Below are positions 18,228-21,650 of a stretch of DNA of 32,046 nucleotides, one piece after another. The DNA lies in assembly GCA_022842865.1 (NCBI GenBank), contig JALHOV010000018.1, positions 1-32,046 of the forward strand. The letters run 5' to 3'. The position numbers were made by a program, and so were the translations under genes. Under the pieces are notes generated by a model, which saw only the letters and a list, made by a program, of their open reading frames with translations, did no database searches and was not told the origin of the DNA. Source of the stretch: Vulcanimicrobiota bacterium. GTDB taxonomy: Bacteria > Vulcanimicrobiota > Xenobia > Xenobiales > JADMJV01. Position 1 is the first letter of the stretch; every line of letters starts with the position of its first letter.

Positions 18228-19454
18228 CTAGGCTTCGATCGGGCGGGCGAGGGCGATGGCTTCGGGTTTGAGGGCTTTGAGTTCGGCCACGACGGCGTCC
18301 ATGTCGGGGTAGCGCTGGTCGCGGTCTTTGGCGATCATTTTGAGAATGCAGTTGGCCAGCGCTTCCGAAATTTGCGGGCGAATCTCGCGCGGGTTGCGAG
18401 GCTCTTCCTGGACATGTTTGATGACGACGTGAATGGCTTCGTCCCCGTCGAATAGCTTCTCGCCGGTGAGCATCTCGAAGCCCATGGCTCCCAGAGCGTA
18501 CTGATCGCAGCGTCCGTCCAACTGCTTTTCGCCCAGAATTTGCTCAGGAGGCATGTAGTGCGGGGTTCCGATGGCTGAGCCGGTCTGGGTCAGGTCCGAG
18601 GTGCCCGACTGGCGGGCCAGCCCGAAGTCCATGATTTTGCAGCCGTGAGGCGTGAGAATGATATTGTCGGGCTTGACGTCTCGGTGAATCACTCCCTTGG
18701 AATGGGCGTGGGCCAGAGCACCGGCCAGCTCGAGTAAAAGGTTGACGGCGTCGGGCACTTCCATGCGGCCCTGTTTCATGCGAGTGCGCAGGGTTTCACC
18801 ATTTACGAATTCCATAATGATGTAGCGCAGCTTATTTTGCTCGTCGGCCTTGTGAATGCGCACGATATTGGGATGGTCGAGCTTCTGGCAAAGAGCCACT
18901 TCGCGCCCGACGCGGGCGGCGAAATCGTCCTGCTCGAGGGCATTCTCCGAAAAGACCTTGACGGCCACTGATTCACTTTCGCGCAGGGTGCGGTCCGGGA
19001 CGCCTTGGAAAACCTTGGCGAATCCTCCAGAGCCGACGAAACGGATTAAGCGATAATGCTCCACCAGGGACATGGCCAGCGGTTCCTCGCCAGCAGCGGC
19101 GGTGTAGTCTTCGATGCGCCGCAAGCGGTCGTAGCGCACTTTGGCCCGCAGCAGGGCACTCACGATCAGCGCGCCCAGCAGCGACGGAATCAGGTAAACG
19201 TGGGACAGGTTCGGTCCCCAGGCACCGAACACCACGTTGCCCACAATGGCGCCGGTCAGTCCCAGGGCAGTGGCCGAAAGCCGTCCGTGGCTCAAAGGAG
19301 AAGGATAGATGGATTCGGACAAAAGCCCGAGACCACAGCCGATTGCTACCAAAACAGCCAGACCCAGCAGATTGCCCAAAACCATAATGAACACGGCGAA
19401 AAGAACCAAAATGAGGGCGCCGTAGCCTATGAGTTGGAACGACTCTCTGTTCAC
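18228..19454 (-). CDS. Membrane-anchored Ser/Thr protein kinase (N-terminal TM segments, GTG start)
   Basis: 'FVGSGGFAKVFQGV', 'VAVKVF', 'VIHRDVKPDNIIL', 'MDFGLARQ', 'GTPHYMPPEQ'. Start at 19454 has a good SD (AGGAGGAAATCGTTAGT-GTG); the longer track start (19640) would overlap the divergent kinase gene. Confidence 0.9.
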   Translation of the reverse strand: MNRESFQLIGYGALILVLFAVFIMVLGNLLGLAVLVAIGCGLGLLSESIYPSPLSHGRLSATALGLTGAIVGNVVFGAWGPNLSHVYLIPSLLGALIVSALLRAKVRYDRLRRIEDYTAAAGEEPLAMSLVEHYRLIRFVGSGGFAKVFQGVPDRTLRESESVAVKVFSENALEQDDFAARVGREVALCQKLDHPNIVRIHKADEQNKLRYIIMEFVNGETLRTRMKQGRMEVPDAVNLLLELAGALAHAHSKGVIHRDVKPDNIILTPHGCKIMDFGLARQSGTSDLTQTGSAIGTPHYMPPEQILGEKQLDGRCDQYALGAMGFEMLTGEKLFDGDEAIHVVIKHVQEEPRNPREIRPQISEALANCILKMIAKDRDQRYPDMDAVVAELKALKPEAIALARPIEA

Positions 19455-19471
19455 ACTAACGATTTCCTCCT

Positions 19472-19487
19472 GGTAGATTGATCTACC
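19472..19487. promoter_or_regulatory. Perfect palindrome between the divergent kinase genes
   Basis: GGTAGAT-TG-ATCTACC. Confidence 0.5.
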
Positions 19488-19527
19488 TCCCACAGGAATG
19501 GTCTTTAGCAATGCAAAAAGAGGTGCG

Positions 19528-20754
19528 ATGAACGGGATGTTGTTGGTCGTCGATGACAACCTGATCAGCCGAGAACTGATGCATCGCCGCTTGATTCGCG
19601 AAGGCCACGAAATCGTGGTGGCCGAGTGCGGAAATTCCACCCTGGAAGCTGTGGCGCTTCATCCCATCGAGCTGGTCATCTTGGATCTTAATATGCCGGA
19701 CATGTCGGGCATGGAGGTCCTGGAAATTCTGCGCCGCCGCTTTACTCCCATCGAGCTGCCGATCCTGATGGTTTCCTCCACGGATGATGTTCACGCCATA
19801 GTGCGCGCCATCGATGGCGGAGCCAACGACTATTTTACCAAGCCCGTGCAGTTCGAGTTGCTTTTCGCCAAGATCCGCCACCTTTTGCGTCTGCGGCCTA
19901 AGGTGGTGATCCTCAATCCGGAAGAGGATTTGCCGCTGGAGCTGCCCGGTTCCTACCAGACAGGCGAGCGGGTGGCCCACTACTGGCTCGAAGGCTCGCT
20001 CGGCAAGGGTGGCATGGGTGAGGTCTTTCGCGCTCAGGATACGCGCCTTCTGCGTCAGGTCGCCCTCAAACTCATCACCGATGAACCCAAGCCGGGTCAG
20101 GCTTTGCAGCGCTTCATCACAGAAGCGCGCGCCCTGGCTCGCGTGGATCATCCCGGGGTCGTCAAAATTTACGAAATCGGATTGCAGCCTTGTCGTTTCA
20201 TCGCCATGGAATTGATCGAGGGCAAGCTGCTCTCGGACGCGCTCAAGGTCATTGCCGACATTCCCACTATCGTGAAGCTCTTCATTCAGCTGCTGGAAGC
20301 CCTGGAAGCCATCCATCTGGAAGGCGTGGTCCATCGCGACCTGAAGCCCCATAACGTAATGGTTACGCTCGACGGCCAGACCAAGGTGATGGATTTTGGG
20401 CTGGCTCGGACCGAGGTGGATCCGATGAAAGGAGACAGCCTTTACGGCACGCCCCACTACATGGCCCCAGAAGCTTTTAATCCTGACCTGGGTCACGTAG
20501 ATGCGCAGAGCGATTTGTTCGCAGTCAGCGTGATGCTTTACGAGTGCCTGCAGGGCGAGCATCCTTTTCCCGCCAAGAATCTCGGAGAGTTGATCATGGC
20601 TCTGGCCAATCATGAACCCGAGCCTTTGGACGTCGCCGTCGATTTATGGCTGGCCATTCAACGCGGCATGCGCCGGGAAAAGCGCCTGCGCTTCGCCACC
20701 GCCCGCGAGTTTGCCCAGGCTCTGCGCCAGTCCATACTGTCTCCACAATTGTGA
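19528..20754 (+). CDS. Response-regulator receiver domain fused to Ser/Thr protein kinase
   Basis: REC: 'MLLVVDDNLISRELM', 'LVILDLNMPDMSGMEVL', 'YFTKPVQF'; kinase: 'LGKGGMGEVFRAQD', 'VALKLI', 'VVHRDLKPHNVMV', 'MDFGLART', 'GTPHYMAPEAF'. ATG 19528 after AGAGGTG. Confidence 0.93.
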   Translation: MNGMLLVVDDNLISRELMHRRLIREGHEIVVAECGNSTLEAVALHPIELVILDLNMPDMSGMEVLEILRRRFTPIELPILMVSSTDDVHAIVRAIDGGANDYFTKPVQFELLFAKIRHLLRLRPKVVILNPEEDLPLELPGSYQTGERVAHYWLEGSLGKGGMGEVFRAQDTRLLRQVALKLITDEPKPGQALQRFITEARALARVDHPGVVKIYEIGLQPCRFIAMELIEGKLLSDALKVIADIPTIVKLFIQLLEALEAIHLEGVVHRDLKPHNVMVTLDGQTKVMDFGLARTEVDPMKGDSLYGTPHYMAPEAFNPDLGHVDAQSDLFAVSVMLYECLQGEHPFPAKNLGELIMALANHEPEPLDVAVDLWLAIQRGMRREKRLRFATAREFAQALRQSILSPQL

Positions 20755-20768
20755 ACTAACCTCGGGAT

Positions 20769-21650
20769 ATGAGAATCCTGTTGCTCGTCCTACTGTTCAC
20801 CGTCTCGGCTTTTGCTCAGGAAAAGATCCAATGGTATGCCACCTGGGAGATGGGTTTGCGCCAGGCTCGCGCCAGCGGCCGGCCGATTCTGCTGATCGCG
20901 GCTGCCCCTCATTGTCACAATGTATCCGGCATCTGGTGACCCGGTAAGCAAGCTATGGACAGGAGTTTCCTGTCCCGACCCGAGGTTGTGCAGGCCTCGC
21001 GCAAATTCATCTGCATCCGTCTGGCCACTTATGAAAGCTTTGAAGAAGCGCAAATGCTGCGCGGCATTTTTCTGGGCGGGTCGGGTCAGGTGGAGAACAC
21101 CACCTTCGCCCTGCTCAGTCCGGACGGCCGAACGCCGCTGGTCTATTCGGGACGCAGTCCCGACTTCGCCTTCGTCAGCTCTCAACAGATGGCCGCCACC
21201 ATGGTTCGCATTTCCGAGCGCTACCAGGGACGGGCCAGCGGTGAACTGCCGGCTGTGGTCAACCTGCGCCTGGCGGTCAACGTAGCCGCCTGTGACGGCC
21301 TGCCGGTATTGGCTCTTACGTCCCCAGACGCCAAACAACTGCGTAACTGGCAGAGCCGACTGGCGGCCGTCGCTTGGGACCCGGCGCTCTTGGGAAAAGC
21401 CATCTACTGCCTGGACCAGAGAGCCACCCCAAAGCCCGGGTTGTTGGTGCTGGCGCCCGGGAAATTCGGACTCGACAGCCAGCCCCTGGGTTGGCTGGAT
21501 CCAGACTCGGCGAACCTCGCGGCTGAACTTCAGAGGCTTTTGAGCAGCTATCGAGCGGCCGACAAGAATGCCCGCGATCACATTCTGGAGGGCAACCAGC
21601 GAGGAGTGTACTGGCAGACCCAGATTCCCGTCACCGATCCCCATAAGTAG
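20769..21650 (+). CDS. Putative selenoprotein: secreted thioredoxin-like protein with in-frame UGA (Sec57)
   Basis: Same frame on both sides of TGA 20937-20939. N-terminus MRILLLVLLFTVSAFAQEKIQWYATWEMGLRQARASGRPILLIAAAPHCHNVSGIW-U-PGKQAMDRSFLSRPEVVQASRKFICIRLATYES..., continuing to the TAG at 21648-21650. Signal peptide and thioredoxin-like first beta strand lie upstream of the TGA; the rest of the domain lies downstream. The ORF track sees only 20955-21650. Confidence 0.7.
20957..20975 (+). promoter_or_regulatory. Candidate bacterial SECIS hairpin
   Basis: GGACAGG-AGUUU-CCUGUCC: perfect 7-bp stem, 5-nt apical loop with G at loop position 2. The loop starts 24 nt after the UGA. Confidence 0.65.

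Follow-up and report, generated by a model that had tools for sequence, protein, structure and literature searches.

A gene at positions 20769–21650 on the plus strand of the window (the whole 32,046-nucleotide stretch of Vulcanimicrobiota DNA that was analyzed) is best explained as encoding a 293-residue selenoprotein, secreted or periplasmic, with two tandem thioredoxin-like domains and selenocysteine (Sec) at the UGA triplet of codon 57 (20937–20939). The probability assigned to this explanation as a whole is approximately 0.88. Insertion of Sec at codon 57, taken by itself and judged from sequence, is close to certain, being backed by a conserved UGA, a covarying hairpin and Sec machinery in the genome; these findings uphold the proposal of a first-pass annotation, which had favored Sec insertion over a nonsense mutation. 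The protein would represent a new family among the thioredoxin-fold selenoproteins, distinguished by an unusual active site and the apparent absence of Cys forms.

Gene Structure and Conservation of the UGA Codon

The reading frame is open from 20769 to 21647 with the exception of a single TGA (20937–20939), and it closes with a TAG stop codon (21648–21650). A mechanical list of open reading frames opens the protein at 20955, downstream of the TGA, as noted earlier, and reading of the frame bore out the claim that it extends upstream through this one TGA to the ATG at 20769. An in-frame stop lies four codons upstream of that ATG, and the position of the start is kept in relatives. The N-terminus, MRILLLVLLFTVSAFA followed by QE, has the character of a signal peptide, as first described; the predicted peptide (20769–20816, plus strand, as are all other features of the gene) would probably be cleaved after AFA (residue 16), a site that was placed by eye, and nearly all homologues possess a strongly hydrophobic N-terminal 10-mer.

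Upstream of the ATG, 14 nt separate the gene from the end of a protein-kinase gene (19498–20754, plus strand), which also carries a response-regulator domain and overlaps a second protein-kinase gene on the opposite strand (18228–19640, minus strand). The downstream neighbor encodes another response regulator. Other phyla do not preserve this gene order, and clustering of the gene neighborhoods of 30 loci revealed no conserved partner outside the close relatives of the window.

An in-frame TGA could also reflect a nonsense mutation or a sequencing error in one assembly, leaving either a pseudogene or a real gene that starts at 20955, which is where the ORF caller begins the protein; the fragmented state of the genome assembly (809 contigs, 82% complete) adds to this concern. 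However, the identical TGA was found in all 74 distinct homologues that were read across the codon (54 and 20 more), which come from independent assemblies in three phyla. Furthermore, dN/dS is low on either side of the TGA (in comparison with sister genome G003, dN 0.033 and dS 0.743 before it, dN 0.082 and dS 0.818 after it), so that selection acts on both flanks of codon 57, and residues P39, G54, and W56, encoded upstream of the TGA, are conserved. Conservation of codon 57 across phyla refutes a local error or nonsense mutation, which has become vanishingly improbable.

Phylogenetic Distribution

Homologues of the selenoprotein are distributed among Vulcanimicrobiota/Eremiobacterota, Planctomycetota and a non-photosynthetic class of Cyanobacteriota. 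Related genomes from the same taxonomic family have exactly one TGA in the same place, at 85, 79, 66, and 51% identity, and a scan in which each species was represented by a single genome turned up relatives in Planctomycetota and in a genome labeled as Cyanobacteria. Profile searches detected the gene in 51 of 392 genomes of Planctomycetota, in 12 of 240 from the non-photosynthetic cyanobacterial class and in 5 of 149 from the window's own phylum; for the Cyanobacteriota phylum at large the count was 1 of 386, namely the genome of the query itself. Neither plasmid records, phage records nor viral contigs held a relative.

The motif among the homologues is G-x-W-U-P-G-K/Y-Q, with few exceptions. 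No Cys or other codon occurs at position 57 in the 74 homologues from three phyla, contrary to the condition named earlier as refuting Sec insertion, homologues with neither Cys nor Sec at the aligned position. In addition, no Cys homologue was found by profile in the genomes of the three phyla, nor in the pattern scan of contigs. The search profile has Cys in the column of codon 57 and would favor Cys forms; the sensitive profile searches covered the three phyla, and other phyla were scanned with short exact patterns. Two genomes that seemed to be exceptions lacking the UGA were rejected as such: in G393 the contig, at 4,124 bases as long as that of L016, ends just past the codon, and in G115 a frame change splits the gene, the N-terminal piece of which retains the UGA. 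In the sister genome G001 the whole gene is missing and no Cys form is present, with the Sec machinery retained. Genomes without Sec machinery lack the gene instead of having exchanged it for a Cys form. Because a Cys version was never seen, Sec is apparently indispensable to this protein.

In a phylogenetic tree, the sequences from the cyanobacterial class form one supported clade, those of the window's genus form another, with the placement of G005 unsure, and the Planctomycetota straddle the midpoint root. Two histories would fit this tree: the family may have arisen long ago within or close to Planctomycetota and then undergone a few transfers, or it may go back to still older vertical descent.

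SECIS Hairpin and Sec Machinery

A hairpin, GGACAGG-AGUUU-CCUGUCC (20957–20975), begins after a 17-nt gap behind the UGA codon, and it recurs across homologues with 7 bp and a loop of AGUUU or AGUUA. The bSECIS model calls for a stem of 4–16 bp and a loop of 3–9 nt, with G in one of the first two loop positions and the loop located 16–37 nt from the UGA (PMC13188914). The window hairpin conforms to this model, having 7 bp, the loop AGUUU and a distance of 24 nt from the UGA codon to the loop. While the folding energy of this single hairpin is only moderately unusual (z -2.1), comparison of 52 sequences revealed that 94.7% of pair cells form, that 30 cells are altered on both sides, and that five of the seven pairs show such two-sided changes. 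The covariation score was 0.364, versus 0.158 for shuffles and 0.05–0.11 (maximum 0.113) for slid pairings, and RNAalifold returned the same helix unprompted. Among 20 held-out sequences that were absent from the alignment, 130 of 140 pairs form (92.9%). Codon choice is restricted as well: Ser at U+9 is encoded by AGT in 59 of 59 cases (43/43 and 16/16 in the hold-out), a codon that is rare farther downstream in these genes (8.7% of Ser codons) and that the hairpin constraint would force at this site, and Arg at U+8 is encoded by AGG in 21 of 25 cases, compared with 6.4% downstream. The search for a SECIS element suggested in the first-pass annotation thus yielded a covarying SECIS-type hairpin downstream of the UGA.

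The same annotation had pointed to selA, selB, selC, and selD as genes to look for, and all four are present in the host genome, with profile scores of 439 bits for SelA, 405 bits for SelB and 351 bits for SelD, and a tRNA-Sec that scores 62.4 bits and has the anticodon UCA. The host SelD (L046, G000 contig C326) itself has an in-frame UGA, in the context SCAGUASK, where sister genome G003 has SCAGCAAK; from these sequences, SelD reads as a Sec/Cys pair within the genus. In Planctomycetota, SelB was found in 49 of the 51 genomes that bear the gene and in 186 of the 341 others (Fisher p 7e-10, a value that serves as a guide only, related genomes being non-independent). The two gene-bearing genomes that scored negative for selB, G060 and G399, both hold SelA, and the absence of SelB from them is therefore probably due to assembly loss.

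Reassignment of UGA occurs in some uncultured lineages, and the codon could in principle be decoded as Trp, Cys, or Gly through genome-wide or partial recoding, or be passed by plain leaky read-through. However, TGA terminates 13 of the 23 main ORFs checked in the window, which argues against global reassignment and agrees with the earlier remark that TGA is an ordinary stop elsewhere. The presence of tRNA-Sec, SelA, SelB, and SelD, a hairpin that is tied to codon 57 alone, the tracking of SelB by the gene and the UGA at the position of the sister's Cys in SelD of the same genome likewise speak against recoding, leaving it extremely improbable. In the preferred explanation, Sec insertion, the ribosome would decode UGA codon 57 by means of SelB, tRNA-Sec and the downstream hairpin.

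Domain Structure and Putative Active Site

The first thioredoxin-like domain (20829–21218) matches the Pfam family Thioredoxin_7 (PF13899) over residues 21–87 at 31.8 bits, above the gathering cut-off of 27, which substantiates the thioredoxin-like assignment made in the first-pass annotation; Thioredox_DsbH (PF03190) scores 16.8 bits, below its gathering cut-off of 27. According to AlphaFold2 and Foldseek, this domain extends to approximately residue 150, and the order of helices and strands in the AlphaFold2 model, together with Foldseek, indicates a second thioredoxin-like domain at approximately residues 165–262 (21261–21554). The model has a mean pLDDT of 80, with the second alpha/beta domain visible and the active-site loop modeled worst (model residues 40–46, pLDDT < 50). 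Foldseek matches span the two tandem domains of PDI-type proteins with low TM scores, and are informative at the level of fold only. Among solved structures, no significant match was obtained by profile search (best E 0.069).

The CxxC site that is usual in Thioredoxin_7 is absent, and UxxK or UxxY is found instead. Residues G54, C82 (codon 21012–21014), R84, E89, N110, and R129 are invariant in 54 of 54 sequences, and the Trp that precedes Sec, W56, is present in 53 of 54. In the second domain, Cys175 (21291–21293), part of a conserved NVAACD motif, is invariant in an alignment of 12 sequences, and the adjacent D176 is found in 52 of 53. Cys49 (20913–20915) is a candidate resolving cysteine. 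The C-x7-U spacing noted for it earlier is correct in the window, but it is not strictly conserved, as Cys lies at -8 from Sec in 72 of 74 homologues and at -9 or -11 in the remaining two. MAFFT alignment of different Trx7 types placed Cys49, not Sec57, on the first Cys of CxxC at the cost of two gaps, while counting back from a shared MDR motif placed Sec57 on the first Cys of WCxxC with one insertion. The latter alignment is preferred here, and most simply Sec57 would correspond to the first Cys of WCxxC.

Sec57 would then replace the first, nucleophilic Cys of WCxxC, giving W-U-P-G-K, with the second Cys replaced by Lys or Tyr. In the proposed mechanism, the selenolate of Sec57 attacks an oxidized or disulfide substrate, and release would proceed through a selenenylsulfide with a Cys outside the motif, of which Cys49, in the preceding loop, and Cys175, in the second domain, seem the foremost candidates. 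The chemistry would be that of a selenol/selenenylsulfide oxidoreductase or a peroxidase, and the protein likely functions in redox protection or repair of the cell envelope as a thiol peroxidase or as a disulfide or sulfenate reductase. While redox catalysis by Sec57 is probable, the assignments of resolving cysteine and substrate are tentative. A Sec protein with a non-redox role, in which the Sec and Cys residues together form a binding site for a metal or metalloid such as mercury, copper or selenium, or in which the protein serves as a selenium carrier, is an unlikely alternative: Lys or Tyr at Sec +3 and the lack of a resolving Cys in a CxxC would suit it, as would the failure to find a conserved partner gene and the fact that mercury or arsenic is the target of several known Sec families (PMC13188914), but the thioredoxin-like fold, the Trp before Sec (53/54) and the presence of a nearby Cys in every sequence are better suited to redox chemistry. 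A speculative extension of the redox proposal, which is rather doubtful at present, is that this is an old, Sec-obligate envelope enzyme with a Cys counterpart nowhere, that its WU-x-x-K site carries out a reaction beyond the capacity of Cys, and that lineages in which SelB is lost shed the gene and do not exchange Sec for Cys.

Novelty and Other UGA-Containing Genes

The first-pass annotation did not recognize a known selenoprotein family here, a view that finds support in the NCBIfam scan and in a recent catalogue. No NCBIfam model (June 2026) reaches its cut-off for this family, and neither the motif nor the architecture of the family occurs among the 119 families of the 2026 catalogue (PMC13188914); planctomycete candidates in the supplementary material of PMC4807772 lay outside this comparison. 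According to the deep-Sep study, Cys homologues seem to exist for every known selenoprotein, and the method of that study may discard proteins that lack them (PMC12013277, 2025), a plausible reason why the family was missed. An apparently Sec-only family would break that generalization. Approaches that search for Sec/Cys pairs would miss a family with UGA everywhere and Cys nowhere in dozens of genomes. Such a family also opens the question of what Sec does that Cys cannot to a direct Sec-to-Cys swap. Many Planctomycetota, Vulcanimicrobiota and related genomes are probably annotated without the gene or with a truncated version of it.

Other Trx7-type genes with in-frame UGA codons were encountered during these searches. 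A second family from Planctomycetota (L105:684-2039:-, L106:481-1779:+, L107:441-1760:+, L112:598-1827:+) has the motif NGHP[LF][GA]CTUNNGV and no NCBIfam match near a cut-off, and in at least two of its four members the UGA is followed by a strong hairpin (CCAGACGGTCCGTCTGG); the family is possibly another undescribed selenoprotein. Single genes of other kinds (L103:873-2300:-, L104:427-1410:+, L110:1-1194:-, L111:73-1014:-) display the motifs GGTUPAC, fused to cytochrome c-like domains, CGTUMLC, GHCUATA, and SVUGVRC. Planctomycetota, as far as these reading frames indicate, seem rich in UGA-containing Trx7-type proteins. Genes of VPGUxxT type 2 (L141, L144, L145, L146, L147) have a second UGA in their MsrA-like C-terminal half (e.g., FAMTUFW), and a VPGU-like gene with the motif ENPGUAGC occurs in the window's taxonomic family (L149, G005 contig C101), scoring 68 bits to NF041383, below the cut-off.

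Comparison With Known Systems

Placement of the protein within a named family, as a divergent form of either Trx7/PDZ (NF041199) or VPGUxxT (NF041382/NF041383), would draw on partial, weak matches over the first 60–70 residues and on the fact that these families likewise carry Sec in a Trx7-type domain. NF041199 proteins are probably exported and are common in Planctomycetota, but they differ in having the motif C-x-x-U-K-D-C (e.g., RCETUKDC) and a PDZ half; a few members without a stop inside the match indicate that Sec-free forms may occur. Members of NF041383 (VPGUxxT type 2) are similar in length and have Sec in a Trx7-type first domain, but their motif is QEVPGUxxC and their second half is MsrA-like, often with a UGA of its own. 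Scores are far under the cut-offs (12 bits for the window protein versus 300 for NF041199; for NF041383, with a cut-off of 275 bits, weak matches in 2 of 12 members of the present family, best E 0.0085), the second half of the window protein is neither PDZ nor MsrA-like, and genomes such as G076, G105, G163, G227 and G307 each have all three as separate genes. Membership in a named family is thus very unlikely, and a family of its own is preferred.

The first domain shares its fold and residue pattern with PF13899 and with thioredoxin domains of the DsbD/DsbH type, from which it differs by WU-P-G-K/Y in place of WCxxC and by an insertion before the active site; by eye, the cis-Pro position of thioredoxin appears to be Thr or Ser. 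Tandem thioredoxin-like domains, as in the predicted model, are also a feature of PDI, ERp44, and QSOX (Foldseek E down to 4e-6), but TM scores of 0.2–0.35, 8–17% identity and the lack of CxxC in the window protein restrict this likeness to the fold. Finally, selenoprotein A of glycine reductase (GrdA) was long regarded as the sole selenoprotein without Cys homologues, until these were reported (PMC12013277); its fold and role are unrelated to those of the protein described here.
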